A stretch of 64,000 nt of DNA from Flavobacterium terrae (lineage in GTDB: Bacteria; Bacteroidota; Bacteroidia; Flavobacteriales; Flavobacteriaceae): assembly GCF_900142035.1 (NCBI RefSeq), contig NZ_FQZI01000001.1, forward strand, positions 62,001 to 126,000, given 5' to 3'. Position 1 is the first letter of the stretch; each line of letters begins with the position of its first letter. Both the position numbers and the translations under genes were made by a program. The notes under the pieces were generated by a model, which saw only the letters and a list, made by a program, of their open reading frames with translations, made no database searches and was not told the origin of the DNA. This document shows, piece by piece, positions 8,590 through 45,431 of the stretch.

Positions 8590-9144
8590 TTATTTTTTTA
8601 TTCTTCCTTCGTTTTGTTTCACAAAGGCATCCCAACCAGAATAACTTTTACCAATCTCTACTCTTCCCGAATTAAAAAAATGGCAAACAGCTGCTGCCAA
8701 ACCATCCGTAGAATCTAGGTTTTTAGGCAACTCTTTTAATCCTAATAATTGCTGAAGCATTTTTGCGACTTGTTCTTTACTTGCATTTCCGTTTCCTGTA
8801 ATTGCCATTTTAATTTTCTTAGGCTCATATTCTGTAATTGGAATTTGCCGTGATAAACCCGCAGCCATTGCAACACCTTGTGCTCTTCCAAGCTTCAACA
8901 TTGATTGCACGTTTTTACCAAAGAAAGGTGCTTCAATAGCAATTTCATCAGGATGATAGGTGTCGATTAACTCAATAGTTCGTTCAAAAATTCGTTTCAA
9001 ACGCATATAGTGATCATCCATTTTGTTTAATTGCAATTCATTAAGTTGGACAAATTCCATCTTTTTATTGACTACTCGAATGAGTCCAAAACCCATAATT
9101 GTGGTACCTGGATCAATTCCTAATATGATACGTTCGTTTGACAC
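8590..9144 (-). CDS. ruvC: Holliday junction resolvase RuvC
   Basis: The 184-residue product has the four catalytic acids in the right order: D11 in ILGIDPGT, E71 in EIAIEAPFFGKN, and D144/D147 in NLDSTDGLAAAVCHFF. The GKNVQSMLKLGRAQGVA helix follows as in all RuvC proteins. It cuts four-way junctions with RuvAB during recombination repair. Length is normal for Bacteroidota. It is divergent from the flippase-like gene, with about 55 bases between starts. Confidence 0.96.
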   Translation of the reverse strand: MSNERIILGIDPGTTIMGFGLIRVVNKKMEFVQLNELQLNKMDDHYMRLKRIFERTIELIDTYHPDEIAIEAPFFGKNVQSMLKLGRAQGVAMAAGLSRQIPITEYEPKKIKMAITGNGNASKEQVAKMLQQLLGLKELPKNLDSTDGLAAAVCHFFNSGRVEIGKSYSGWDAFVKQNEGRIKK

Positions 9145-9200
9145 TCTTTTTATTTGAAAGGTTAAAGGTTAAACGTCTAAAGTTTCGTTACTTTGCTTCA

Positions 9201-10157
9201 ATGATAACTGTAAGCGACAAAGCTAAGCAATTCCTTATACTTCTCCTTAAACTTTGCATTGTTGGAGGAGCTTTTTATTTTATTTATGATCGATTAGCAC
9301 ATGACAATCAATTAAATTGGAGTCAATTCAATAAATTACTGATTGAAAAAGCCTCTATAGGAAATGTTTGCTTTATTTTATTTCTCTCTTTTTTAAACCG
9401 TTATCTAGAAATTCTTAAATGGAAAAACTTGGTAAATTTCATAAAACCGATAACTATATGGGAATCTACAAAACAGGTTATGGGAGCCTTAACATTGGCT
9501 CTTTTCACTCCAAATGGGATAGGTGAATACGCAGGAAAAGCGTTGTTTTTTGAAAAAGAAAAAAGCAAAAAAATTGTCTTTCTGAATTTAATTTGTAACG
9601 GAATCCAGATGATTTTAACGGTTATTTTTGGCACTTTTGGATTATTATATTTCAATGCTTCTTTCAACATCATTACTCCTAAAAGTGTTATTTTAATTTT
9701 CGGATTGTTTATAGTACTACTTTCCCTTTCATTTTTCATGAAGAGAATTAATATTAAAGGATATTCCTTGGAAAAACTGATACACAAAATCAATGTCATT
9801 CCTAAAAAAATACACCAAAAAAACATTTTATTAGCCGTTGCCAGATACCTTACATTTTCACATCAGTACTATGTTTTGTTTTTGATTTTGGACGTTCAAC
9901 TGCCTTATCTATCATTGATGGCCGCCATAACGAGCGTATATTTTCTTGCTTCTGCTTTGCCAAGTTTTCAATTTCTAGACTTTGCCGTTAAAGGGAGTGT
10001 GGCGGTTTATTTTTTTGGATTACTAGGCGTTAACGAATGGATTGTCGTGTTTGTCACAACACTTATGTGGTTTTTAAATACTGTTTTACCAGTTGTTATA
10101 GGAGCCTATTTTGTATTTACATTTAAATCAGGATGGAAACAGGAATCATTATCATAA
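9201..10157 (+). CDS. Flippase-like integral membrane protein (UPF0104 / LPG synthase TM-region type)
   Basis: With ATG at 9201 the product has 318 residues and about eight hydrophobic segments. The pattern FLSFLNRYLEILKWKNLV early, then LFTPNGIGEYAGKAL, then a final cluster of helices matches the membrane region of lysylphosphatidylglycerol synthase and related UPF0104 proteins, which move lipids or lipid-linked sugars across the membrane. There is no catalytic synthase domain. An upstream TTG at 9138 would add 21 residues that overlap the ruvC start; I reject it. The 3' end overlaps the glycosyltransferase start by 25 bases, which suggests coupled translation and a shared role in surface glycan or lipid work. 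Confidence 0.8.
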   Translation: MITVSDKAKQFLILLLKLCIVGGAFYFIYDRLAHDNQLNWSQFNKLLIEKASIGNVCFILFLSFLNRYLEILKWKNLVNFIKPITIWESTKQVMGALTLALFTPNGIGEYAGKALFFEKEKSKKIVFLNLICNGIQMILTVIFGTFGLLYFNASFNIITPKSVILIFGLFIVLLSLSFFMKRINIKGYSLEKLIHKINVIPKKIHQKNILLAVARYLTFSHQYYVLFLILDVQLPYLSLMAAITSVYFLASALPSFQFLDFAVKGSVAVYFFGLLGVNEWIVVFVTTLMWFLNTVLPVVIGAYFVFTFKSGWKQESLS

Positions 10158-11233
10158 CAATATACTATGTTTTAAACATTTTATGGCTGATCTACGGTTT
10201 CGCCAAAGTAAAAACATTCATTCCTAAAGAAAGTACACCATCCAATCAATTTACAATTGTTATTCCTTTTAGGAATGAAGCCCAAAATCTTCCTAAGCTA
10301 ATGCAGTCAATTGAAAAACTAGATTATCCTTATAACTTATTCAGAGTTATTTTAGTCGATGATGACTCTACAGATAAGTTTCAGATTTCAGATTTCAGAT
10401 TTCAGATTTTCGTATTAAAGAATATTCGAAAAACCAATTCACCAAAAAAAGATGCTATTAATACGGCCATCAAAAATGCTGAAACAGATTGGATTATAAC
10501 AACAGATGCGGATTGCATTATCCCTAAAAATTGGCTAAAAACATTTGATGCTTTTATTAAAGAACATGATCCAAAAATGATAGCATCTGGTGTTTATTAT
10601 CAAACAGGGAATTCAGTTATTGATGAATTTCAGCAATTGGACTTAATGAGCTTACAAGGAACAACGATAGGAAGTTTTGGTAATCAACAACCATTCATAT
10701 GCAACGGTGCCAATTTTGCTTATCAAAAAGATTTTTTTGAAGAGCTAAACGGATTTGAAGGGAATGATACTATTGCAAGTGGTGATGATGTTTTTTTATT
10801 ACAAAAAGCCCTTAATTATCAAAGTGAAAATGTTCATTTTGTAAAATCAAACGAAACTTTAGTACTCACTCAAACTGAAAAATCATGGTTATCTCTATTT
10901 CATCAACGAGTACGATGGGCGAGTAAAACAGGAAGTTATTCAGGGGTCTATAGCAAGCAATTAGGATTATGTGTGTTTTTAATGAATTTAACCTGCATAA
11001 TATCTATACTGCTTTGGCTAACTAATTTCATCGCTTTAGAGGTAATTATATCTGTTATGATTTTAAAGTTTATAGTTGACTATATACTTATTCGAAATAC
11101 TTCAAACTTCTTTAAAGTGAATCTCAATCATTTTTTTCTAAGTAGTTTAATTTATCCTTTCTTTAGTTCCGCAGTAGTTTTTTATAGTTTTTTTGGAAAC
11201 TATAAATGGAAAGGAAGAACTTTCAAAAAATAA
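10133..11233 (+). CDS. Family 2 glycosyltransferase with C-terminal membrane segments
   Basis: The 366-residue product starts with one membrane helix (about 3-22), then the GT-A domain: TIVIPFRNEAQNLPKL, VILVDDDSTD, TTDADCIIP (the DxD-type metal site) and later SGDDVFL and the QRVRWASK (QxxRW-type) motif of processive-like GT2 enzymes. At least two more hydrophobic segments follow (about 283-345). Directly after DDDSTD the DNA carries four tandem copies of the heptamer TTTCAGA (10379-10406), encoding a Phe/Gln/Asp-rich insert (FQISDFRFQIF) not expected in the family. Because the unit is 7 bases, gain or loss of one copy shifts the frame. Acceptor and sugar unknown. Confidence 0.88.
   Translation: METGIIIITIYYVLNILWLIYGFAKVKTFIPKESTPSNQFTIVIPFRNEAQNLPKLMQSIEKLDYPYNLFRVILVDDDSTDKFQISDFRFQIFVLKNIRKTNSPKKDAINTAIKNAETDWIITTDADCIIPKNWLKTFDAFIKEHDPKMIASGVYYQTGNSVIDEFQQLDLMSLQGTTIGSFGNQQPFICNGANFAYQKDFFEELNGFEGNDTIASGDDVFLLQKALNYQSENVHFVKSNETLVLTQTEKSWLSLFHQRVRWASKTGSYSGVYSKQLGLCVFLMNLTCIISILLWLTNFIALEVIISVMILKFIVDYILIRNTSNFFKVNLNHFFLSSLIYPFFSSAVVFYSFFGNYKWKGRTFKK
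10379..10406 (+). repeat. Tandem heptamer TTTCAGA x4 inside the glycosyltransferase gene
   Basis: Four exact copies at 10379-10385, 10386-10392, 10393-10399 and 10400-10406, then a partial TTT. The gene is in frame with four copies; three or five copies would break it. Confidence 0.95.
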
Positions 11234-34985: not shown

Positions 34986-36284
34986 CTATGATGTTTTCAG
35001 CATATCTCTAAACTGATACAAAACTCTTTCAAGCAATCTTAAATCTTCTGTAATAATTTCTGCAGATCCTCGCATTTCTTGTTGGAAAGGAATTGTTTTT
35101 TTATAACTAGTTTTCATTCCTTCTGGAAGCACAACATCAATTGCAATATTACCTTCTTTGTCTGGCACTAAGGCTATATTTTGTATTTTCCCTTTAAGTA
35201 TTCCAAACTCTCTATCAGGATAATTTAAAAGTCTAACATTTACTTTTTGACCAACTTTAATTTTTCCTGAATTTTGAGAAGGCGCTTTAAGTTTTCCTAT
35301 GTAACCTTCACCTGCTGAAGGCACAACTGAAAAAACTTCTTCTCCAGAAGTAACTGTTTGATTTTTAACCCAAACCTTTGTAAAAGTTACTTGCCCATCA
35401 ATACCTGACTGCAAAACATAGTTAAGTTCCCAATCTTTAATCGCTTTTTTAAGTTGGTAAAAAGATTGTGACAAATTCCTGTCTAGATTAACAGTTTCTT
35501 TTACATCGTTTATTTCGTTTCCTTTAATTGCTTTTGTATTATCAATTAATGAAGATTGCAATTGTGAAATTGAAGACAATAAGTTCTTATAATTTTTTTC
35601 AGCTTGTAAAAAAGCCATTTTTTTACTTTCAAATTCCTGATCAGAAACTACTCCTTTATCATGAAGCTTAGTATAACGAGTCAATTCACTTTTTTGTAAT
35701 TGAAGTTCTTGTTCATTAATCGATTTTTGCTGAATCAGTAATGACAATCGTTCTTTAATTTGTGAACTTTCAGAACGCTGTGCAGAAGATTCTACCTTAT
35801 AAGGAGTCAAGCTTTTATTCAAACTATTGGCCATATAATCCTTTTGAAAAGCAGCATAAGCACTCTCTATATCTCCAAATTGAGCATTAGTGAATTTAAC
35901 AAAAGAAAAATCATTAAAATTTCTCTTTTGAAAAGCCTCTAATTCATTTTTCAATTTAAAGATATCTTCATAATTTGAAGCATTTTCAATTACTGCTAAT
36001 GGTGTATTTGCTTTTACCAATGCTTTATCTTTTATCAAAAGACTCTGAATTCTACCGGAAGCTTTTGCCATCATTTTTTCTGGCGGAATATTTGTCGTTA
36101 TAACAACTTCTGTTCTCACAATGTCTGGATATTTCAAAAACCATGAAATAACAAACATCAGCACTATAATTGAAAAAATCAAAACTGTTCCCCAACGAAT
36201 CATCCAGTTAGGAACTTTTGAGAGTATGTCTTGTACTTCTTCACTGCGAAGTTCAAAAGAAGTATCGTATGTATTTTGTGCCAT
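34986..36284 (-). CDS. HlyD-type adaptor of the peptide exporter
   Basis: The 432-residue product has a short cytoplasmic N terminus, one membrane helix (about 31-50), a lipoyl-like half (AKASGRIQSLLIKDKALVKANTPLAVIE), a long coiled-coil hairpin (about 150-265) and a beta domain with QSGIDGQVTFTKVWVKNQTVTSGEEVFSVVP, the HlyD/membrane-fusion signature of bacteriocin exporters. It sits directly downstream of the C39 ABC transporter (2-base gap), so the pair forms the inner-membrane part of a type I-like exporter for the double-glycine peptides encoded nearby. The outer-membrane channel is not in this locus; a general TolC protein would be needed. Confidence 0.9.
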   Translation of the reverse strand: MAQNTYDTSFELRSEEVQDILSKVPNWMIRWGTVLIFSIIVLMFVISWFLKYPDIVRTEVVITTNIPPEKMMAKASGRIQSLLIKDKALVKANTPLAVIENASNYEDIFKLKNELEAFQKRNFNDFSFVKFTNAQFGDIESAYAAFQKDYMANSLNKSLTPYKVESSAQRSESSQIKERLSLLIQQKSINEQELQLQKSELTRYTKLHDKGVVSDQEFESKKMAFLQAEKNYKNLLSSISQLQSSLIDNTKAIKGNEINDVKETVNLDRNLSQSFYQLKKAIKDWELNYVLQSGIDGQVTFTKVWVKNQTVTSGEEVFSVVPSAGEGYIGKLKAPSQNSGKIKVGQKVNVRLLNYPDREFGILKGKIQNIALVPDKEGNIAIDVVLPEGMKTSYKKTIPFQQEMRGSAEIITEDLRLLERVLYQFRDMLKTS

Positions 36285-36286
36285 GA

Positions 36287-38479
36287 TTAATTTCCTAATT
36301 GTAATTGGTTTCTAACCAATTCAAAATAATTTCCTTTTTGCTCTACTAACGCGGAATGGCTTCCTATTTCGATAATTTTACCTTTATCTAATACCACAAT
36401 TTGGTCAGCATTCATTACTGTACTTAATCGGTGCGCTATTACTACTACAGTTTTGTCTTTGAAAAACAAATCTAGTTTTCTCATGATTTCCTTTTCGTTG
36501 TTAGCATCTAAAGCAGAAGTAGCTTCATCAAAAAACAACATTTCGGGATTTTTATAAACTGCTCTAGCAATGAGTAATCGTTGTTTTTGCCCTGTACTCA
36601 TTCCAACACCTTCTTGTCCTATCTTAGTATTATATCCTAACGGAAGTCCATTAATGTAATCCGTAATATTAGCCACATCAGCTGCATAAGCTAAGCGTTG
36701 CTTATCAACTTTATCTACTCCAACAGCTATATTATTTGCAATAGTATCATTAAAAATAAAACCTTCTTGCATTACTGCACCAATACTATTTCTCCATGCC
36801 TTCTGTGAAATGTTTTTAAGTTGTGCATTGCCAACAAAAACTTCTCCTTTTTCTGGCTCATAAAACTTTAAAAGTAATTTCATCAAAGTGGTTTTACCAC
36901 TACCGCTTACCCCAACAATCGCAGTCACCTTATTAGCAGGAATTACTAAATCCAAATTTTCTAAAACGGGTATATCAGCACCTAAATATCTGTAGGTTAA
37001 ATTCTTTACATGAATATCTTGATTATTTGGCACATCATGCATTTGAAATTCTTCTTGTTGAACCTCATCTTCTTTTTCATGAATTTCTGACAAACGAGCT
37101 AAGGATATTTTAGCGTCTTGCAATTCTCTAACAAAACCAATTAATTGAGTTATTGGACCATTTAAATTTCCAACAATCGAACTAATTGCCATCATCATAC
37201 CAAGAGTAATATCTCCATCAATAACCAACTTAGCAGAAATAAAAACAATAAAAATATTCTTTAATTCATTGATAACTGACGAACCAATAGTTTGTGTTTG
37301 TTCTAAAACTAAACCTTTCATAGACACTTTAAACAATCTTGCCTGAACATGTTCCCAACCCCATCTTTTTTGTTTTTCGGCATTATGGAGTTTTATTTCC
37401 TGCATACCATTAATTAACTCCATAACTTTGCTTTGTTCCTGACTTATTTCGGAAAAACGCTTGTAATCTAATGCCTCTCTTCGTTTTAAAAACAAAGTTA
37501 TCCAACCAAAATAAAGTATACTTCCAGCAAAAAAAACAAAGAATATCTGAAGATTATAATAGGCCAAAACTCCACCCATAACTATCATGTTGATAATAGA
37601 AAAAATTACGTTTAGTGACGAAGTAGTCAGAATTCTTTCAATTCGGCGATGATCATTAATACGTTGCATGATATCACCAGTCATTCGTACATCAAAGAAC
37701 GAAATTGGCAAATTCATCAATTTGATAAAGAAATCTGAAATCAGTGAAATATTAATCCTTGTAGATAGATGAAGTAAAATCCAACTTCGTATAAGCTCTA
37801 TTCCAGTTCTACCCGCAAATAAAAATAATTGCGCAAAGAGAATAAGATAGATAAAATTGATGTTTTGATTTTGAATTCCAACATCGACTATACTTTGAGT
37901 TAAAAATGGAAAAACTAGCTGCAATAATGTTGCTGCTAACAATCCAATACTTAGCTGAACAAGAAAGGATTTATATTTCCATAAATATTGATACAAAATT
38001 CCAAAACCTAAAGCTTTCTTTTCCTCTTTATCAAAATCAGTTTCAAAAAACTTAGGAGTAGTTTCTAGTAACAATGCAACTCCTTCTGGAGTTTTATCAT
38101 CAGCATTATTTCCAATCCAAAATTTTAAAAACTCCGTCTCATTGTAATCAATAAGACCAAAACCAGGATCCGAAATACGATATTGACCTTTTTTAATATC
38201 ATATAAAACCACATAGTGCTCCTTATTCCAATGCAAAATGCATGGCAAGGGAGCCTCTTGAAGACTTTCTAAATCAAGCTTTACACCTAAAGTTCTGAAC
38301 CCAATACGTTCTGCAGCATCACTTAAAAAAAGTAAATTACTCCCCTCACGGGTAGTCTCAGAGTAATCTCGTAACTGTTGTATATTGATTGTCCTGCCAT
38401 AGTATTTAGATACAATCTTCAAACAAGTTGGTCCACAATCTTTAGCATCAGCCTGAATATATGTAGGAAATTTTTTCAA
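36287..38479 (-). CDS. C39-peptidase ABC exporter for double-glycine leader peptides
   Basis: The 730-residue product has three parts. Residues 1-130: C39 peptidase with catalytic C15 (Q9...DCGPTC), H88 (KEHYVV) and D104 (SDPGFG). Residues about 165-440: ABC membrane domain. Residues about 490-725: ATPase with Walker A GVSGSGKTT (near 525), signature STGQKQR (near 630, variant of LSGGQ), Walker B MLFFDEATSALD and H-loop IAHRLS. It should cut peptides after GG and export the core. Start is TTG: an in-frame stop lies two codons upstream and the peptidase needs the first 15 residues, so no ATG fits. A TACTTTTG box lies upstream; the HlyD gene follows. Confidence 0.95.
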   Translation of the reverse strand: MKKFPTYIQADAKDCGPTCLKIVSKYYGRTINIQQLRDYSETTREGSNLLFLSDAAERIGFRTLGVKLDLESLQEAPLPCILHWNKEHYVVLYDIKKGQYRISDPGFGLIDYNETEFLKFWIGNNADDKTPEGVALLLETTPKFFETDFDKEEKKALGFGILYQYLWKYKSFLVQLSIGLLAATLLQLVFPFLTQSIVDVGIQNQNINFIYLILFAQLFLFAGRTGIELIRSWILLHLSTRINISLISDFFIKLMNLPISFFDVRMTGDIMQRINDHRRIERILTTSSLNVIFSIINMIVMGGVLAYYNLQIFFVFFAGSILYFGWITLFLKRREALDYKRFSEISQEQSKVMELINGMQEIKLHNAEKQKRWGWEHVQARLFKVSMKGLVLEQTQTIGSSVINELKNIFIVFISAKLVIDGDITLGMMMAISSIVGNLNGPITQLIGFVRELQDAKISLARLSEIHEKEDEVQQEEFQMHDVPNNQDIHVKNLTYRYLGADIPVLENLDLVIPANKVTAIVGVSGSGKTTLMKLLLKFYEPEKGEVFVGNAQLKNISQKAWRNSIGAVMQEGFIFNDTIANNIAVGVDKVDKQRLAYAADVANITDYINGLPLGYNTKIGQEGVGMSTGQKQRLLIARAVYKNPEMLFFDEATSALDANNEKEIMRKLDLFFKDKTVVVIAHRLSTVMNADQIVVLDKGKIIEIGSHSALVEQKGNYFELVRNQLQLGN

Positions 38480-38497
38480 TTTTTAGTTTGTTTTTGG

Positions 38498-38505
38498 CAA
38501 AAGTA
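38498..38505 (-). promoter_or_regulatory. -7 promoter box of the exporter genes
   Basis: TACTTTTG on the minus strand, 18 bases before the TTG start codon, directly after the terminator hairpin. Suggests the exporter pair can be transcribed apart from the peptides. Confidence 0.5.
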
Positions 38506-38508
38506 ATG

Positions 38509-38538
38509 AAAACCGCCTGAATAATCAGGCGGTTTTTT
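38509..38538 (-). terminator. Terminator between peptide genes and exporter genes
   Basis: 12-bp perfect stem aaaaccgcctga / tcaggcggtttt with a 4-base loop. On the minus strand only four T follow, so partial readthrough into the exporter is likely. Confidence 0.75.
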
Positions 38539-38560
38539 AACATGATCTTATTTTTAAAAA

Positions 38561-38764
38561 TTATCCTTTAATACAACATTTGCATTTAGTGTTGTAAACA
38601 CCTTCATAAAGACTAAAACAATCTTCAGCATTGATTGTATAATCACAAACATTTCCAGGAGGAAGGCTACATCCACTAGGATTTGTTATTCCTCCGTTAA
38701 TTGTTTTTTGTTCTTTTTTGCTCAATTCAAGAGCGCCCTCTAAGTTTAAAATGTTTTTTAACAT
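38561..38764 (-). CDS. Double-glycine leader peptide precursor A (6 Cys)
   Basis: 67 residues from the ATG at 38764 (an upstream in-frame ATG at 38782 lies outside the conserved leader). Leader of 25 residues starts MLKNILNLEG and ends KKEQKTINGG. Core of 42 residues, ITNPSGCSLP... to CKCCIKG, with six cysteines, three of them in the last seven residues. The leader matches precursors B-E; the core is unlike them. Expected path: leader recognised and cut by the C39 exporter, cysteines paired by the VKOR-thioredoxin proteins. It is 11 bases after precursor B and followed by a leaky terminator. Activity unknown. Confidence 0.85.
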   Translation of the reverse strand: MLKNILNLEGALELSKKEQKTINGGITNPSGCSLPPGNVCDYTINAEDCFSLYEGVYNTKCKCCIKG

Positions 38765-38775
38765 ATCAAAATAAA

Positions 38776-38994
38776 TTAACAAAGAATAAATTCGAAATAA
38801 TCGTCTGGTCCTGTTACAGGTTTAACTATTGTACATTTATTAGGTGCAGTCCATTTTCCCATCCATTCAGCACATTGTTCCTGTGTAAAAACTGTTACTA
38901 CACATTGATCATCTCTAAGTCCACCACTGATTATTTTTTGTTCTTTATTAGTTAACTTTTGAACACCGTCTAAGTTTAAAATGTTTTTTAACAT
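38776..38994 (-). CDS. Double-glycine leader peptide precursor B (4 Cys)
   Basis: 72 residues from the ATG at 38994. Leader MLKNILNLDGVQKLTNKEQ ending IISGG (25 residues), core of 47 residues with cysteines at core positions 6, 16, 29 and 47, the last residue. The core has two Trp and is mildly acidic (GPDDYFEFILC at the end). First peptide gene after VKOR-Trx 1; the predicted pseudoknot element ends 26 bases upstream of the ATG. A longer frame from 39030 would run through that element and is rejected. Confidence 0.85.
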   Translation of the reverse strand: MLKNILNLDGVQKLTNKEQKIISGGLRDDQCVVTVFTQEQCAEWMGKWTAPNKCTIVKPVTGPDDYFEFILC

Positions 38995-39020
38995 GATTAA
39001 ATAATTTAAATAATTTATTT

Positions 39021-39071
39021 TCTCAATCATTTAAAGACAGTTGAGATTTCTGTCTATTCTTGGCCAAGAAT
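39021..39071 (-). promoter_or_regulatory. Predicted structured RNA element, copy 1 (hairpin plus H-type pseudoknot)
   Basis: Read on the minus strand: palindrome ATTCTTGGCCAAGAAT (39071-39056); then S1 AGACAG (39055-39050), AAA, S2 TCTCAA (39046-39041), S1 partner CTGTCT (39040-39035), 8 bases, S2 partner TTGAGA (39026-39021). S1 and S2 interlock as an H-type pseudoknot with 6-bp stems. It begins 4 bases after the VKOR-Trx 1 stop and ends 26 bases before precursor B. A second copy with one compensatory change is at 43823-43870. It is not a known riboswitch as far as I can tell. Read on the + strand, the palindrome is followed by a T run. Confidence 0.55.
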
Positions 39072-39075
39072 TTTT

Positions 39076-40650
39076 TTATACAATTTGAAAGTTTTCTTTA
39101 TTTTTTAATGTGTTAGTTTCTTCTTCAAAATCATTTAAGAAATATTTTATATCACTTAACTCATATTCATCTGGAAACAATTTGTTATTAACAATTTTTA
39201 CAGGAGTAAAATTGAACTTGTTAGTTAAGCACCAATCATACTGTTTCATCATTTGATTATTAATAATCATATTGTATGACGATAAAGACCATTTTTCTTT
39301 CCATTCTATCAAACTAATGTTATTAATGTGCCAATCCTCCAAAGCTTCTTTAGCCATCTTTTCATTTGATGAGTTTAAAGCCAATAATGTTTCTACAATA
39401 GATAAATACTCATTGTCTCTATTTTCAGGGTTGACATTAAATAATATATTGAGGTATACATTGCTTTTATTTTTTTCGAATAAATCCTTAGCGTCTTTAA
39501 ACGCCTTATGACAATGACCACAACTTGGACTTAAAAAAAGAGTCAAACTTATCGATGCATTACTATCACCATATTTAATGCCCTTTAACTTTTCAAAACC
39601 CTCATGTATTTCTATCTTCTTGCTAAAAGATTTGAAAACTTTAAAATTTCTTTTAAGACGTTTATAGACATTTAATTCATCTTTTAATTGAACATTTCTT
39701 TCAATAATTGGTCTTATAAAAAACCAACTTGAAATGATTAAAATCGAAGGTTGTATATAACCAAAAGAGTTACTAAAAGTGAAATTGCTAATAGACTCTG
39801 AATATGAAAAAAAAAGTGTTCCTTGAATCAGAATGACTAATGAAACCACCAAACATAAAAAACACCATTTTTTTAAAATCGCTTTTTGAAGCCAAATAGA
39901 ATAACCTAGGAAAGGAATTGACACTAAACTCAGACAAACAATTGGTAAACTCGAATTATTTGGATCTGTAAGTAGTGCTAAAAAATTAATTACGAAAAAA
40001 AGAATGGGTAAATCATAAAAACTTAGTCCTTTAAAAATTTCGCTTTTATTTGATCTTATTACTGATTCACATGAAGCTTGAGCATTAACGTTACAAAGTT
40101 TTGATCCTATTTCTGTTTTGATTCCAAATTTTTCTTGTAAAATCAAAACACTAACTAACAACCCTATTATTGTTAGTCCTAACACAGAGAAACTAAAGGC
40201 TGAAAAATTAAACGAAAAGGTTGATAATAAAACTAATAATAAGACAGGCAATAAATACAACACCCCATTTGAATAACTATTTTTAATTTGAAAATTTTTT
40301 ACATCTGTATTTGACTCGATAACAACAACAATTTGACCCCATTCCCTTAGAAATTCATCAGAAGTGATAGTTAATCTTTTTCCTTTTTCACTCTCAACTA
40401 ATACTGCTGAATTATCTTTTTTTATCAAAGCTAGCGCTCCTTTATATACTGATAAAAAATATTTAGGTAATTCTGCAAATTGATCTTTTGGAACTTTCAC
40501 TGCTAAATTATCAATAGCCAAATAACTCAATGTGTCTGTAACGGCATACAAGCTCGGATAATTTGGGTGAGATAAAAAAGCCTCTTCAAATAATTCTTTT
40601 TGATCATAATACTTATTTAAATTCAAGTATTTTTTAATGATGTTTAACAT
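39076..40650 (-). CDS. VKOR-thioredoxin fusion with degenerate C39-like N-terminal domain, copy 1
   Basis: 524 residues. About 1-115 aligns by eye with the C39 domain of the exporter (HPNYPSLYAVTDTLSYLAIDNLAVK against the REGSNLLFLSDAAERIGFRTLGVK region; SDEFLREW against ETEFLKFW) but lacks the catalytic Cys and His. Hydrophobic segments lie near 130-150, 153-172, 212-228, 235-255, 262-280 and 298-316. VKOR loop cysteines are C186 and C194, its redox pair WCFLC is C263/C266. A thioredoxin-like domain (about 340-510) has SCGHC (C377/C380). It should make disulfides outside the inner membrane using quinone. Its neighbours are cysteine-rich precursors, so these are the likely substrates. Confidence 0.88.
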   Translation of the reverse strand: MLNIIKKYLNLNKYYDQKELFEEAFLSHPNYPSLYAVTDTLSYLAIDNLAVKVPKDQFAELPKYFLSVYKGALALIKKDNSAVLVESEKGKRLTITSDEFLREWGQIVVVIESNTDVKNFQIKNSYSNGVLYLLPVLLLVLLSTFSFNFSAFSFSVLGLTIIGLLVSVLILQEKFGIKTEIGSKLCNVNAQASCESVIRSNKSEIFKGLSFYDLPILFFVINFLALLTDPNNSSLPIVCLSLVSIPFLGYSIWLQKAILKKWCFLCLVVSLVILIQGTLFFSYSESISNFTFSNSFGYIQPSILIISSWFFIRPIIERNVQLKDELNVYKRLKRNFKVFKSFSKKIEIHEGFEKLKGIKYGDSNASISLTLFLSPSCGHCHKAFKDAKDLFEKNKSNVYLNILFNVNPENRDNEYLSIVETLLALNSSNEKMAKEALEDWHINNISLIEWKEKWSLSSYNMIINNQMMKQYDWCLTNKFNFTPVKIVNNKLFPDEYELSDIKYFLNDFEEETNTLKNKENFQIV

Positions 40651-40864
40651 AATATATCCTTCTGTTTATTTTCAAATACTGGGGCAAATTTTGATGCATT
40701 TGGAGAATAAAAAAAACGAATACAATTGCAATTTTTAAATTATATGTATGACTATTTATAAATTAGCTTACGTCATTAAGTACATAAAACACTGATTTTA
40801 AAAGAACTAAAACCACAAGCAGCTGCAAAACCTTTAATTCTAAAAAACAAACTGAATGATTAAC
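40651..40864. other. Divergent upstream region, VKOR-Trx 1 / precursor F
   Basis: About 215 bases, very AT-rich, no gene. It must hold the promoter of VKOR-Trx 1 on the minus strand, but I find no exact TAnnTTTG there. No copy of the pseudoknot element is present. Confidence 0.4.
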
Positions 40865-40872
40865 TAAATTTG
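40865..40872 (+). promoter_or_regulatory. -7 promoter box of precursor F
   Basis: TAAATTTG, 18 bases before the ATG at 40891. It covers the alternative TTG start at 40870, which decides for the ATG. Confidence 0.45.
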
Positions 40873-40890
40873 AAAAAATTTAATTCTGAA

Positions 40891-41136
40891 ATGAAAATGA
40901 AAAACAGCAAATTGAAAATTAGTGAGTTTGAAAAGTATTCTTTATCAACAAAATTTCAAACTTTAATAAAAGGAGGATTAACAGATGGAGGTGATGACGA
41001 CCTAGGTGGCTATGGAAGTGATGGTGACCCGGATGATCCAAATAATCCAGGTGGGCCAGGCGGAACTACAATGTCGGTACCAGTCACCACAACCCTCGAC
41101 CATTCAAATCCCATTATAGTTATTATTAAAAGTTAA
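40891..41136 (+). CDS. Double-glycine leader peptide precursor F (no Cys, Asp/Gly-rich)
   Basis: 81 residues from the ATG at 40891. Leader MKMKNSKLKISEFEKYSLS then KFQTLIKGG (29 residues) resembles the LKLxKLSxxEL...GG leader style of Bacteroidota natural-product precursors and is not related to the MLKNIL leader of A-E. Core of 52 residues starts LTDGG, is rich in Asp, Gly and Pro with no cysteine, and ends in a hydrophobic tail (PIIVIIKS). It is alone on the + strand between the two VKOR-Trx modules. It may share the exporter; because it has no cysteine it is not a disulfide substrate. A signalling role is possible but not shown. Confidence 0.65.
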   Translation: MKMKNSKLKISEFEKYSLSTKFQTLIKGGLTDGGDDDLGGYGSDGDPDDPNNPGGPGGTTMSVPVTTTLDHSNPIIVIIKS

Positions 41137-41197
41137 ATAAGTAATTTTACTTTAATAATAATACCGAAAATTAAAGTTAATTATAACTTCTCTTTTA

Positions 41198-42967
41198 TTA
41201 AGAGAAATTATAATTTGCATCATCTAACTTTTTTGCAAATTGAACTGGACTAAGTCCAGTTTTTTTGTTAAAAGACCTCGCAAAAGAAGCTGCATTTTTA
41301 TATCCAACACTTTCTGCGATGGCTTGAGTTGAATATTTCCTATATAATGAATTAGTAATCATCTCATTAATGACATAATTAATTTTTAACTCATTTGCAT
41401 ATTCACTAAATGTTTTTTCAAAATTTTTATTCACAATATATGAAAGATAGGTTGTATTTGTTTTAATTTTTTTAGCTACAAATTGCAATGTAAAATCTTG
41501 ATTTAAAAAAACTTTTTTCTCTTCAAGATCTTTTAGTTTTTGCAATAACTGAGTTTCCTTTTCTTCATCTAGATTTAATGTAGCAACTTGATTGCTCACT
41601 TGTTGGTTTTCTTCTTGGAAACTCAATTTTAAAGATTCCATTCCTAAATTTTCTTCCTTTCTATATTTTTCGATTATATCGTTAAACTTAGCTTCGGTAA
41701 CTTTTCTGTATCTATAATTTTTTATTGAAAAGTAAAGTAACATCACTATAGTAATTAAACCCAAACACCATGCAATTGTTTTAAAAAGATTTTGCACTTC
41801 ATACTTAGCTTGCATTTGAATCATTTCTTTTTTCAAAACTTGTTCATTTTGAAAACCATTAATTTTTTCTTTTTCATTAATCAATTTCATCTCCTCAGAT
41901 TCTAGATTTTCAAGATAAGTCTTTGCAAAATGTGTTGCCTTTACATAATCCCCTTGAAACTCATGAATTTTAGCCTGATAATATTTTGAACTTACATATT
42001 CTTCCCTGCGATACTTTTTCTCAGTTGTAGCATAAATTGAATCAACTTTCGAAAAATAAACCAGAGCTTTTTCATAATCCTCTTTTAAAAAATAAGCATA
42101 TCCAAAATTGTATAATGATACATAAAATTCATCGTAGAGTTCGTTCTCTATACATTCTGAAATAATGTTCTGATAAATGTTTATTGCATAATCGATTTTA
42201 TTTAATTGTAAATAGACTCCAGCCATATTTATCTGAATCCTAACTTTAGACATAATCGAATACTTTGAATAAGCAATTGCCTTTTTATAATAAAACAATG
42301 CTGAATCTAAAATTTTCTTATCTTTTTGGTTCTTCTTAAAAACGCTCTCATAGTTTTTTCCTAAATTTAGAAGAAGACTAGATTTTGTCGTTAGTAAATC
42401 ATTTTCTGTAAAAAGGAAATTATTTTCCCCAATCATTTTTTCAGACCTTTTCAAGGATTTAATAGCTAATTGATAATTACCAATTTCATTATTAATAATT
42501 GCAATATTATTTTGTAGTTTTATGACTTGTCTTAGATCATTTATTTTTATTGAATAACCCAGTCCTTTGTTAAGTTTCAACAAAGCATTACTTAATTTAG
42601 CTTTTTGCCAATCCATCAAACCTATATAATTATACAGATATGCTAAAGTTCTATCTTTCTTAACTGAATTTGGTATTTTCTCCGAAAGTTTTAGTGCTTC
42701 ATTTACTTTTTTGTTAGAAATTATAGTATCGCCTTTCGACTGAGAAAGATAAGCAATTGCTCCTTTTGCAAAAATTTTTTGTTCTAAATCTGTTGATTTT
42801 TCTAATCTAAAAGCTATTACAAAAGCACTATCTTGGTTAGAATTAGTCAATCTTCTTATTTCATCTTGAAAATTCGAATACTCTTTTGTACTAAAAGCTT
42901 TTTGTGCTTGAAGCGGTAAATAAAAAAATGTAAAGAAGAAGATGAAGTATAAAAAATATGCTCTCAT
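41198..42967 (-). CDS. Membrane-anchored TPR sensor with AraC-type DNA-binding domain
   Basis: From the ATG at 42967 the product has 589 residues and begins with a signal-like segment (MRAYFLYFIFFFTFFYLP, then LQAQ). An ATG at 43000 adds 11 charged residues. TPR-type helical repeats span about 25-385 (for example YNYIGLMDWQKAKLSNALLKL and KEDYEKALVYFSKVDSIY). One membrane helix lies near 397-415 (WCLGLITIVMLLYFSI), then a coiled coil and a C-terminal AraC domain (AIAESVGYKNAASFARSFNKKTGLSPVQF). TPRs are thus predicted outside the inner membrane and the HTH inside. It lies within the peptide locus, after the terminator of precursors C-E. An AT-rich inverted repeat (41179-41215) overlaps the gene end. 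Confidence 0.85.
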   Translation of the reverse strand: MRAYFLYFIFFFTFFYLPLQAQKAFSTKEYSNFQDEIRRLTNSNQDSAFVIAFRLEKSTDLEQKIFAKGAIAYLSQSKGDTIISNKKVNEALKLSEKIPNSVKKDRTLAYLYNYIGLMDWQKAKLSNALLKLNKGLGYSIKINDLRQVIKLQNNIAIINNEIGNYQLAIKSLKRSEKMIGENNFLFTENDLLTTKSSLLLNLGKNYESVFKKNQKDKKILDSALFYYKKAIAYSKYSIMSKVRIQINMAGVYLQLNKIDYAINIYQNIISECIENELYDEFYVSLYNFGYAYFLKEDYEKALVYFSKVDSIYATTEKKYRREEYVSSKYYQAKIHEFQGDYVKATHFAKTYLENLESEEMKLINEKEKINGFQNEQVLKKEMIQMQAKYEVQNLFKTIAWCLGLITIVMLLYFSIKNYRYRKVTEAKFNDIIEKYRKEENLGMESLKLSFQEENQQVSNQVATLNLDEEKETQLLQKLKDLEEKKVFLNQDFTLQFVAKKIKTNTTYLSYIVNKNFEKTFSEYANELKINYVINEMITNSLYRKYSTQAIAESVGYKNAASFARSFNKKTGLSPVQFAKKLDDANYNFS

Positions 42968-43075
42968 TTGTCGCTTTTTAGAACTTGCAAAGGAACTCAT
43001 TTTTTTAAAAAAATTATACGTATTTAATCAACTATCTCTAAAATTCTATAAACAAATGGAGAATCTATATTAAAC

Positions 43076-43099
43076 AAAAAAGGGGAAAATTCCCCTTTT
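43076..43099 (-). terminator. Terminator after precursors E-D-C
   Basis: 10-bp perfect stem aaaaggggaa / ttcccctttt with T run on the minus strand, separating the peptide operon from the AraC-type gene. Confidence 0.85.
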
Positions 43100-43113
43100 A
43101 TAATTATTAAATC

Positions 43114-43338
43114 CTAATATGGCGGTGGCGGAACATATGGACCACAAAAATAAGCTTTACAAATACCTAATGAATATGAATAATTATATCCTTCTGATCT
43201 AGTAGCTTTACAGTTAGCCAAGCTAGTTCCTTCCCAGCTTTGATATTGACAACCAGCTGGTATACCTCCATTAATTTTTTTTTGGTCAACCCTTGTTATC
43301 AATTGAGCACCTTCTAAGTTTAGAATGTTTTTTAACAT
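43114..43338 (-). CDS. Double-glycine leader peptide precursor C (4 Cys)
   Basis: 74 residues. Leader MLKNILNLEGAQLITRVDQ ending KKINGG (25 residues); core of 49 residues, IPAGCQYQSWEG onward, with cysteines at core positions 5, 18, 35 and 40 and a proline-rich end (GPYVPPPPY). Last of three peptide genes behind VKOR-Trx 2, directly before a terminator. The leader departs most from the others (LITRVDQ in place of LSKNEQ). No similarity of the core to A, B, D or E beyond cysteine content. Confidence 0.85.
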   Translation of the reverse strand: MLKNILNLEGAQLITRVDQKKINGGIPAGCQYQSWEGTSLANCKATRSEGYNYSYSLGICKAYFCGPYVPPPPY

Positions 43339-43407
43339 GATTTAATTTTTTTTTAGTTTTTAAAAATCCCTTTAAAAAAAACAAGGGAATAAACTCAGTA
43401 AAACTTA

Positions 43408-43572
43408 TTATGGTTCTAACTGTATTCGGCAAGGATTAGCACAAGCCAAACTGTAATATCTACATTGTCCTGTCATTGGATCAATACAATCTTTCAATCC
43501 TCCTTTAACTGATTTTTGCTCATTTTTAGATAATGCTTGAGCACCTTCTAAGTTTAAAATGTTTTTTAACAT
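43408..43572 (-). CDS. Double-glycine leader peptide precursor D (4 Cys), short
   Basis: 54 residues, easily missed by length cut-offs. Leader MLKNILNLEGAQALSKNEQ ending KSVKGG (25 residues); core of 29 residues, LKDCIDPMTGQCRYY then SLACANPCRIQLEP, with cysteines at core positions 4, 12, 19 and 23. The first 70 bases are almost identical to the leader-coding DNA of precursor E. Two stop codons in a row (TAA TAA) end it. It lies 46 bases after E and 69 bases before C, all on the minus strand behind VKOR-Trx 2. Confidence 0.88.
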   Translation of the reverse strand: MLKNILNLEGAQALSKNEQKSVKGGLKDCIDPMTGQCRYYSLACANPCRIQLEP

Positions 43573-43618
43573 GATATTTTATATTTAAATTATGCGTATT
43601 ATTTTAAAAAAATCTTTA

Positions 43619-43798
43619 TTAGCATGGAACATAACTGATTGGCCTGCATAAGTTTTCATAACGACAGTCCGTTACACATTTAGTACCTGCTGGACAATAA
43701 TTATTATCAACGCCACAGGCTAAACCTCCTTTAATCGTTTTTTGCTCATTTTTAGATAATGCTTGAGCACCTTCTAATTTTAAAATGTTTTTTAACAT
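43619..43798 (-). CDS. Double-glycine leader peptide precursor E (6 Cys)
   Basis: 59 residues from the ATG at 43798 (an in-frame ATG at 43828 would reach into the pseudoknot element). Leader MLKNILKLEGAQALSKNEQ ending KTIKGG (25 residues); core of 34 residues, LACGVDNNYCPAGTKC onward to the final Cys, with cysteines at core positions 3, 10, 16, 20, 26 and 34. Spacing and density recall small disulfide-knotted peptides. First peptide gene behind VKOR-Trx 2. Confidence 0.87.
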   Translation of the reverse strand: MLKNILKLEGAQALSKNEQKTIKGGLACGVDNNYCPAGTKCVTDCRYENLCRPISYVPC

Positions 43799-43822
43799 AA
43801 TTAATAGTTTAATAGTTTTATT

Positions 43823-43870
43823 TCTCAATCCTTTAATGACTGTTGAGACTCAGTCCTCTCCTGGCCGGGA
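43823..43870 (-). promoter_or_regulatory. Predicted structured RNA element, copy 2 (hairpin plus H-type pseudoknot)
   Basis: Read on the minus strand: TCCCGGCCAGGA (43870-43859, imperfect GGCC-centred hairpin), GAG, S1 GACTG (43855-43851), AG, S2 TCTCAA (43848-43843), S1 partner CAGTC (43842-43838), 9 bases, S2 partner TTGAGA (43828-43823). Same order and loop sizes as copy 1. S1 differs from copy 1 by an A-T to T-A swap on both arms; S2 is identical. It starts 4 bases after the VKOR-Trx 2 stop and ends 24 bases before precursor E. Confidence 0.55.
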
Positions 43871-43874
43871 TATT

Positions 43875-45431
43875 TTACTGTGCTATATTTTCGTGCTGAA
43901 GTTTGTTTATTTCCTCAAAATCATTCATGAAATAATATAGATCTGCTATTTCGTATTCATTTGGAAAAAGCTTTCCGTTAATAATCTTCACAGGAGAATA
44001 GTTAAATTCGTTCTCAACACACCAATTATACTGGTCATAAATTTCATTATTTACCATCATATCATGTATATCAATTCCCCATTTTTCCTTCCATAAGTCT
44101 AATCCAATTTCATTAATATGCCAATCAATTAAGGCCTCTTTAGCTTTATTAGAATTAACAGAGTTGATATACAGTAAATTTTGAACAATTATCTTATACT
44201 TGTTTTGTTCATTTTCTGGATTAACGTTAAATAGGATTTTTAAATAAATGCTCTCTGGATACTTTTTATATAATTCATAAGCATCTGCAAAAGCTTTATG
44301 ACAATGTCCACAACTAGGACTCAAGAAAAGTAAAATATTAGTAGTAGCCTCAAAATTTCCAATCTCAATCCCTTTTAATTTTTCCAAAATATTTTTTGAA
44401 TCAATCTCTTTAGTCAGAGAACTAAAAACTTTAAAATTTCGCTTAAATCTTTTTAATTCCTTTACTTCTTTTGTAGCTTTAATTTCTTTTTCCAAAACTG
44501 GCTTCATTAAAAACCATGCTGAAAAAAGTAATGTTACTGAAAATAAATAAGAGACAAATCCTGACGGTGTAAAAGTATTAAAAATGAATGGGTTAAAAAC
44601 AAAAAATAGTCCTTGCAACAACACAACTCCTGAAATTCCTAAACATAGTAAACACCATTTTTTTATTTTAAACTTCTGAATCCAAACCGAATAAATCAAA
44701 AAAGGAATAGTCAACAAACTTAGTCCAGATATAATGCTAACTGACAAAATTGGGCTCAGTAGTAGTGATAAAAAGTTAGATCCAAAAAACAATAATGGCA
44801 AATCTGTAAAACTCAACCAACTTGTAATCTGACTTTGATCAGATTTAATAACTGAATCACAAGATGTTTCTTGATTCATATTACACAATTTGGAAACTAT
44901 TTCTGTTTTTATTCCAAATTTTTCTTGTAGTACCAAAACACTTAAAAGAAGTCCTAAAACATTTAGTCCTAAAAGCAAAATCGAGCTAATTGAATATCCA
45001 TTGGAAAAAGAAGACAATAAAATCAACAATAATAATGGAAGCCCCAACAAAACCCATTTTGAAGTCTTTTTTAGTTCAATTTTCTTTTCTGTATTTGGTT
45101 CTACAGCAATAACAATCTGATCCCAATCACCAAGAAATACATCGAGAGTTAACTTTAATTTCTTTCCTTTTTCATCTAGAACAGTGATTAAATCATTACT
45201 TTTAGATAAAAAAACCAATTCTCCCTTATAAAGAGTCAAGAAAGTTTTCGGTAATTCTACAAACTGTTCTTTAGGTATTTTTATGGCAAGATTTTCAACT
45301 CCCAATAAACTCAATGTATCAGTAATAGCAAACAAACTTGGATAATTGGGATGTGAAGAAAATAGATCTTCAAATTCATCTACAACATTTGAGTACTTAT
45401 TCTCAATTAAAAGTTTTTTAACTAAATGCAT
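43875..45431 (-). CDS. VKOR-thioredoxin fusion with degenerate C39-like N-terminal domain, copy 2
   Basis: 518 residues, collinear with copy 1: degenerate C39-like region (about 1-115, SHPNYPSLFAITDTLSLLGVENLAIK), hydrophobic segments, VKOR loop cysteines C183/C191, redox pair WCLLC (C260/C263), and a thioredoxin-like domain with SCGHC (C374/C377) and a C-terminal EFNYSPVKIINGKLFPNEYE. The catalytic Cys and His of C39 are absent here too. It heads the E-D-C peptide genes. Keeping two diverged copies, each with its own peptides, suggests each serves its own set. Upstream lies the 329-base divergent region before the acyl-CoA dehydrogenase. Confidence 0.88.
   Translation of the reverse strand: MHLVKKLLIENKYSNVVDEFEDLFSSHPNYPSLFAITDTLSLLGVENLAIKIPKEQFVELPKTFLTLYKGELVFLSKSNDLITVLDEKGKKLKLTLDVFLGDWDQIVIAVEPNTEKKIELKKTSKWVLLGLPLLLLILLSSFSNGYSISSILLLGLNVLGLLLSVLVLQEKFGIKTEIVSKLCNMNQETSCDSVIKSDQSQITSWLSFTDLPLLFFGSNFLSLLLSPILSVSIISGLSLLTIPFLIYSVWIQKFKIKKWCLLCLGISGVVLLQGLFFVFNPFIFNTFTPSGFVSYLFSVTLLFSAWFLMKPVLEKEIKATKEVKELKRFKRNFKVFSSLTKEIDSKNILEKLKGIEIGNFEATTNILLFLSPSCGHCHKAFADAYELYKKYPESIYLKILFNVNPENEQNKYKIIVQNLLYINSVNSNKAKEALIDWHINEIGLDLWKEKWGIDIHDMMVNNEIYDQYNWCVENEFNYSPVKIINGKLFPNEYEIADLYYFMNDFEEINKLQHENIAQ

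Follow-up and report, generated by a model that had tools for sequence, protein, structure and literature searches.

A candidate secreted-peptide system with its own disulfide machinery in Flavobacterium terrae

Here, we describe a locus at positions 34986 to 45431 of a 64-kb stretch of the Flavobacterium terrae genome (contig NZ_FQZI01000001.1; the whole stretch is the window below), which probably encodes a system for secreted peptides that has disulfide machinery of its own, together with a candidate peptide-sensing circuit and an RNA element in the peptide mRNAs. The locus holds a C39 peptidase-containing ATP-binding cassette (ABC) exporter, an HlyD-type membrane-fusion adaptor, five cysteine-rich precursors (A to E) with a double-glycine (GG) leader, and two fusions of a C39-like, a VKOR, and a DsbA-like (thioredoxin-fold) domain. 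An initial annotation had claimed this gene set, and every member lies where it was placed; it overlooked a Cys-free GG peptide on the plus strand and the RNA element preceding precursors A and D, and it did not count the regulator within the unit.

The core genes all lie on the minus strand. Fusion 1 (43875 to 45431, 518 amino acids [aa]) is followed by precursor A (43619 to 43798; leader ending TIKGG, 34-aa core, 6 Cys), precursor B (43408 to 43572; 29-aa core, 4 Cys), and precursor C (43114 to 43338; 49-aa core, 4 Cys). Fusion 2 (39076 to 40650, 524 aa) has the same domain order and 54% identity to fusion 1, and is followed by precursor D (38776 to 38994; 47-aa core, 4 Cys) and precursor E (38561 to 38764; 42-aa core, 6 Cys), the starts of A, D, and E being taken at their ATG. 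The count thus agrees with the 6, 4, 4, 4, and 6 core cysteines claimed, and alignment bears out a single 25-residue leader type. Similar cores occur elsewhere, with 6 Cys for A (locus L223), with 4 Cys for B (L220 and L224), for C (L220), and, by eye, for E (L220 and L223). The exporter (36287 to 38479, 730 aa, start TTG) carries a DCGPTC motif near its N terminus and has the features of a peptidase-containing ABC transporter, namely, a C39 domain with its Cys (Pfam, E = 5.8e-32) and ABC membrane and ATPase domains above cut-off. The adaptor (34986 to 36284, 432 aa) matched HlyD_3 (4.2e-13).

Co-occurrence was examined in 299 genomes of the family and in a phylum draw of 296 genomes; the named fusion loci are the best 80 of 212 kept. 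Among the family genomes, the fusion was found in 40, the leader in 36, and the RNA element in 39, with fusion and leader together in 31, fusion and element in 30, and all three in 27 (both/fusion only/other only/neither: 31/9/5/254 for the leader and 30/10/9/250 for the element). Because leader matches occur in 31/40 fusion genomes versus 5/259 without a fusion, the association is not due to chance. A leader hidden Markov model (HMM) recognized 436 precursors in the fetched flanks of 102/108 fusion loci, some of the loci being counted twice; fusions regularly lacking Cys-rich GG precursors, which the initial annotation had named as refuting its proposal, were therefore not the pattern found. 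Of the six other loci, two are short contigs (L061 and L098) and one (L015) is the L032 locus, where the precursor lies 2.1 kb further on. Same-strand precursors within 3 kb of a fusion were downstream of it in 234/242 cases. Some short loci come from the genomes of named ones (L011/L102, L012/L076, L015/L032, L018/L096, L020/L033, and L021/L037), so that locus counts are partly nonindependent, and the unique-core counts below are free of such repeats.

In the phylum draw, the fusion was present in 33/296 genomes, which range from members of the genus to members of other classes, and among the named loci (the 80 best of 212) are records of Bacteroidales, Saprospiraceae, Cyclobacteriaceae, and Roseivirga. 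Within the genus, it is patchy (12/18 genomes drawn, our own counted). BLAST relatives of the exporter and of HlyD were found in 54 and 50, respectively, of 75 long loci (window counted). Five family genomes had leader matches and no fusion match; two of these (G069 and G263) carry, close to the precursor, a thioredoxin-like protein of the AhpC-TSA/Redoxin type, and a third (G028) has a Redoxin match below cut-off, so a redox partner recurs. Taken together, the genome comparison argues for the dedicated disulfide-peptide system proposed in the initial annotation, in which disulfide formation itself is what we infer. Loci L178, L179, and L180 have the leader type, no fusion match, and a thioredoxin-like protein near the precursor (below cut-off in L180), and the L179 exporter is 68% identical to that of the window.

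The fusions were confirmed as VKOR proteins by Pfam (4.7e-13 and 2.5e-14; 49.9 and 54.0 bits against a cut-off of 27.5). Thioredoxin_4 was below cut-off in fusion 1 (7.7e-4) and above it in fusion 2 (2.2e-5), and Peptidase_C39 was below cut-off in both (0.0065 and 0.027). An AlphaFold model of fusion 1 (mean predicted local distance difference test score, 82.6; predicted template modeling score, 0.62) supports three domains. In this model, residues 1 to 114 fit C39 domains (6mpz_B, a GG protease with leader; Z 13.1, root mean square deviation [rmsd] 3.0), residues 145 to 286 fit human VKOR (6wv7_B; Z 13.2, rmsd 3.1; a Z of about 13 for this helical part is near the level common for helical bundles, and Pfam is independent support), and residues 338 to 511 fit the DsbA-like ScsC (6mhh; Z 17.2, rmsd 2.6, 161 residues). 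Six redox cysteines, the VKOR loop pair C183/C191, the VKOR CxxC C260/C263, and the C374-G-H-C377 active site of the modeled thioredoxin fold, are invariant in 30 aligned fusions. Locus L004, with two stops in its match, was excluded from alignment A3. A VKOR and a DsbA-like domain make an oxidizing pair.

The N terminus of fusion 1 has no catalytic Cys of an active C39 peptidase, since its first Cys is residue 183. A comparison of the fusion profile with the exporter (hhalign) gave a weak match (probability 3.8%); support for the C39 fold therefore comes from the model and the sub-cut-off Pfam matches. Degenerate C39-like domains have been described as substrate recruiters (PMC6363468), among them the C39-like domain of HlyB in type I exporters, which likewise has the C39 fold without the catalytic Cys; in HlyB-type systems, it sits on the ABC exporter, whereas here it sits on an oxidase. 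By analogy and on the modeled fold, the domain in the fusion may capture leaders. No paper joining VKOR with GG peptides was found in the open-access literature searched.

All five leaders share M1 L2 K3 N4 I5 L6, L8, G10, Q19 K20, and GG. In LahT, leader residues −4, −7, and −12 occupy hydrophobic pockets, with Leu at −7 (PMC6363468). Among the 436 precursors of the HMM set, −4 is I or V in 423 and −12 is L or I in 426 (window leader C, with I at −12, is not among the 22 hand-picked leaders of alignment A8). HMM seeds were taken from fusion loci, which biases recall to this leader type. Unique cores have an even Cys number in 380/421 cases and 4 or 6 Cys in 348 (1 Cys, 1 core; 2, 3; 3, 1; 4, 173; 5, 32; 6, 175; 7, 7; 8, 27; 10, 2). 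Other small open reading frames (ORFs) in fusion loci have at least 4 Cys after residue 25 in 105/1454 cases, and at least some of these are probably precursors missed by the HMM.

The RNA element was found in most of the 92 intergenic stretches collected between a fusion and its first precursor. It consists of a hairpin (P1), a 5- to 6-bp helix (P2), and a further helix (P3) in which the P2 loop pairs with sequence downstream, i.e., an H-type pseudoknot. It heads both peptide sets of the window (minus strand; 5′ leader of A, 43799 to 43874, covariance model [CM] match at 43799 to 43885, 37 bits, E = 4e-4; 5′ leader of D, 38995 to 39075, CM match at 38995 to 39083, 61.3 bits, E = 3e-10), the former being among the 66 model-building sequences and the latter in the training set, and elsewhere in the family also precedes dispersed precursors. 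Leaders more than 90% identical and four without a visible element (L019, L025, L028, and L086) were removed, leaving 73, and pairing statistics were computed on 66 of these, chosen for having the element. In these 66, 92.8% of 1103 cells pair (slid versions, 35 to 52%), 15/17 pairs change on both sides, and none of 500 shuffles reaches any of five measures. Covariation is present in 6/6 P3 pairs.

A CM given the P1 and P2 pairs only yielded 255 matches in the window plus 78 loci. Of 254 aligned matches, 222 end within 8 nucleotides of the ATG of a recognized precursor, 158 of them exactly; since the 3′ end of the CM was cut at the ATG, this abutment reflects the cut and a constant spacing. 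The remaining 32 comprise about 10 before precursor-like ORFs (mostly ending GS, GK, or GA), five before other ORFs, and 17 for which no ORF of 25 aa was found. The element precedes 222/394 precursors in the named loci. P3, which lies outside the CM pairs, was paired at 93.8% in 144 matches and 93.7% in 110 (slid, 21 to 51%), these matches being partly the CM training set; the number of pairs changing on both sides, a weak measure, was equaled in 5 and 23 of 500 shuffles, respectively, and the other measures in none. Its place just upstream of the ATG suggests that the element controls translation or mRNA stability. Genomes with the element only have it before other small peptides, some of them Cys-poor, and before one lipoprotein. 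No Rfam family matched the elements of the window, L040, L033, and L075 (E up to 5), and absence from Rfam is no proof of novelty; Rfam matches at 38468 to 38581 were discarded as below gathering score and away from the element. Also discarded was the P1 loop, which holds TCGCGA in 177/254 matches, as a self-dimerizing palindrome: 50/254 lack any palindrome, and one arises in 31% of shuffled 14-mers.

Between the two peptide sets lie the parts of a candidate sensing circuit. The regulator (41198 to 43000, minus strand, 600 aa) has TPR repeats, one transmembrane helix predicted by hydropathy (about residues 404 to 427), and an AraC-type helix-turn-helix domain (HTH_18, 509 to 590; Pfam); because of the position of this helix and the signal-like N termini of seven relatives, the TPR part should be periplasmic. 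The Cys-free GG peptide (40891 to 41136, plus strand; leader ending LSTKFQTLIKGG; ORF from TTG 40870, first ATG 40891) is convergent with the regulator; on its other side, a tandem direct repeat (40727 to 40771, minus strand; two copies of about 18 bp, 23 bp apart), the predicted regulator site, lies between it and the divergent fusion 2. Support for the peptide comes from its GG, its alignment with L218, and a matching layout in seven same-genus loci. A regulator relative was found by tblastn in 8/12 same-genus fusion loci (11 genomes); seven of these eight carry Cys-free GG peptides on the opposite strand in the same convergent and divergent arrangement, 20 in total and up to 6 copies. A direct repeat with a period of exactly 23 bp lies in the divergent region of all eight loci with this layout, window included; it stands 114 to 117 bp before the fusion ATG in seven of them, and in L218 the distance is 41 bp. 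A matrix made from the other loci only ranks the window repeat as the best site in the 64 kb (score, 25.7; next nonoverlapping site, 8.5; six random 64-kb sequences peak at 7.3 to 17.6), and the five same-genus loci in which no Cys-free peptide was detected reach no more than 10.3. The Cys-free peptide may be a pheromone. RRNPP systems, too, place a short peptide gene beside a TPR/helix-turn-helix regulator; they sense a reimported peptide with a cytoplasmic TPR domain, whereas here the TPR part is predicted to be periplasmic, a transmembrane helix separates it from an AraC-type domain, and the peptide has a GG leader.

We propose that the common GG leader, with its hydrophobic −4 and −12 residues, would be read by the C39 protease and that the exporter, with HlyD, would cleave after GG and export the core. 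The fusion would be a dedicated oxidase, its DsbA-like domain oxidizing core cysteines in the periplasm, its VKOR domain handing the electrons to quinone, and its C39-like domain, without catalytic Cys, binding the leader so that precursors are tethered to oxidase and exporter; orphan precursors at other places in the genome would be substrates of the fusions as well. The Cys-free peptide, in the part of the genus that has it, probably leaves by the same transporter and may be sensed by the membrane regulator through its periplasmic TPR part; the regulator would then act on the promoter of the fusion by way of the 23-bp direct repeat. The pseudoknot, where it occurs, would set translation or stability of the peptide mRNAs. 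A mixture of antibacterial peptides is the most likely product, this being the weakest step. A wider version, which we put forward only tentatively and regard as rather doubtful in full, extends over several Bacteroidota classes: the dead C39 domain would be a leader receptor on a quinone-linked oxidase, through which any peptide with the right GG leader, clustered or dispersed, is oxidized and exported, with a new pseudoknot RNA added in a large part of the family and a Cys-free pheromone and periplasmic TPR one-component regulator switching the system on in part of the genus. If true, the proposal would supply a pool of several hundred candidates for disulfide peptides (our sample has 421 unique cores) with a genomic handle to find more, a plausible role for the C39-VKOR-DsbA fusion, for which no paper was found in the literature searched, a strongly covarying RNA element, and a testable peptide-sensing circuit for flavobacteria.

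Several observations weigh against this proposal. Six fusion genomes have neither a leader nor an element match at the thresholds used, two of which (G133 and G266) do carry GG precursors beside the fusion, and three loci (L031, L105, and L107) have no recognized precursor. No exporter match was found in the flanks of 24/74 loci over 5 kb, and leader-only genome G038 has no redox protein among the two neighbors scanned. Leader residue −7 is Q in 397/436 precursors, as opposed to Leu in LahT, and the Cys number is odd in 41/421 unique cores. In the circuit, the leader HMM does not recognize the Cys-free peptide of the window, L224 has the regulator and no repeat site, and the repeat is AT-rich, binding of the regulator to it being a prediction. 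The RNA element was found in 8/33 fusion genomes of the phylum draw (E 1e-4, strict filters; 9/296 overall), in 5/12 fetched same-genus loci (L218 weakly, E 0.25), and in 0/8 fetched loci outside the family (E up to 1); these counts rule it out as a general part of the system, and it would be mainly a family feature or have diverged beyond reach of the CM. It also stands before genes that are not Cys-rich, namely, an own-genome precursor with 1 Cys (L177), a 175-aa lipoprotein (L182, in G045), and, at L035:15501-15588, a 301-aa secreted protein, the last two not being GG peptides.

The fusions could be general periplasmic disulfide enzymes that stand beside peptide genes by accident. VKOR-thioredoxin proteins form disulfides generally, and the six genomes and three loci named above would fit, but a fusion present in just 40/299 family genomes and patchy within the genus, which tracks the leader and mostly has its precursors directly downstream, is not what such an enzyme would lead one to expect, and we judge this unlikely. 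Alternatively, the core cysteines could serve other chemistry (thioether rings, metal binding, or glycosylation), with the fusion merely protecting or reducing them; the 41 odd-numbered cores and the occurrence of CC in 147 and CxxC in 107 of the 421 unique cores would suit this. Pfam and NCBIfam found no Lan, radical-SAM, or glycosyltransferase domain in the eleven window proteins scanned, so the modification enzyme of a lanthipeptide or radical-SAM peptide cluster was not among them, even Cys numbers dominate, and VKOR with a DsbA-like domain is an oxidizing pair, all of which makes other chemistry very unlikely.

A larger share of doubt concerns what the peptides do. They may be signals, adhesion, or structural factors and not antibacterials, as the diversity of the cores, the lack of an evident immunity gene among the window ORFs (by eye), and the Pfam and NCBIfam results for the five precursors (zero matches and sub-cut-off leader matches only, respectively) would allow; large variable arrays, with at least 12 precursors in Tenacibaculum loci L040 and L041, fit competition better, and so does a layout resembling the one of bacteroidetocins, which are able to kill although no immunity gene is evident (PMC6671954). 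We regard a non-antibacterial role as a possibility to be kept in mind, less likely than an antibacterial one. The 5′ element, lastly, could be a DNA site of interleaved palindromes for a regulator, P2 and P3 being dyads in DNA as well and the P1 loop so often holding TCGCGA. Against a DNA site, 105/1495 P3 cells are G-U, a pair that is kept in RNA and mismatched as DNA symmetry, and P3 letters change where pairing stays; we give this explanation little credence and prefer an RNA structure.

Bacteroidetocins (class IIf bacteriocins), disulfide-bonded and active against Bacteroidales, are the nearest described system found. Their loci, also in Bacteroidota, have four genes; these encode, among others, a 4-Cys GG peptide, an exporter of the C39 ABC type, and a thiol oxidoreductase, and no immunity gene was found. 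Deletion of the thiol oxidoreductase attenuates toxin activity, and migration is altered under reduction (PMC6671954). The initial annotation was thus overstated in calling a duplicated dedicated disulfide module with this many cores "not described functionally." The window shares the 4-Cys GG peptide and, by Pfam, the C39 ABC exporter, but is not a member of the group, because bacteroidetocin leaders are 15 to 16 aa (25 aa here) and their five-transmembrane protein and thiol oxidoreductase are separate genes (PMC6671954), neither of which was found among the ORFs of 34986 to 45431, where one C39-like/VKOR/DsbA fusion stands instead. Bacteroidetocins have about one peptide per locus (five here), and an RNA element, a Cys-free peptide, and a TPR regulator are not mentioned for them in the passages of PMC6671954 drawn on here. 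The window system probably works like bacteroidetocins.

Bacterial VKOR-thioredoxin fusions ("VKORC1/thioredoxin domain protein"; 4nv6 and 3kp9, which we take to be of Synechococcus origin) also join VKOR to a thioredoxin-fold domain and gave weak matches to our fusion profile (E 0.001 and 0.06); the window fusions differ in having an additional N-terminal C39-like domain, in the DsbA/ScsC-like character of their C-terminal domain, and in being coupled to GG peptides in the genome.

It had also been claimed that each VKOR-thioredoxin protein serves its own set of peptides, which we could not uphold. The leaders are unsegregated (A, B, and E are most alike), the window has one exporter, and beyond position nothing was found tying either fusion to its own set. 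Our genome has nine leader matches, and five precursors of this leader type lie outside the window: two in L176 (6 and 6 Cys), one each in L174 and L175 (4 Cys each), and one in L177 (1 Cys, found via the RNA element), the leaders of L175 and one L176 orphan ending in GA and GS, respectively, not GG. Because the two fusion matches of the genome are both in the window, the window enzymes and exporter may act in trans on these orphans.

The duplication of the disulfide module stands: a tree groups fusion 1 with L220 and places fusion 2 as the sister of both (support 97/99), which makes the window pair a duplication in this lineage; as a distinguishing feature it does not, since close fusion pairs also occur in L218, L219, and L222. 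The tree shows a recent pair in L218 and pairs drawn from two clades in L219 and L222; these other pairs arose separately. The second L222 copy (8825 to 10346, minus strand) has stops in the frame used and is apparently decaying.

Two further observations concern the surroundings of these genes. A CHAT-TPR protein, a TPR protein, and a sigma-70 region 2 protein (clusters, a single representative of each tested) occur in 27, 25, and 20 of the 75 long loci, respectively, and such neighbors (L035, L038, L062, and similar) are perhaps another control module. Between precursor E and the exporter gene, at about 38500 to 38540 (minus strand), a GC-rich hairpin is followed by a short T run, resembling a terminator.

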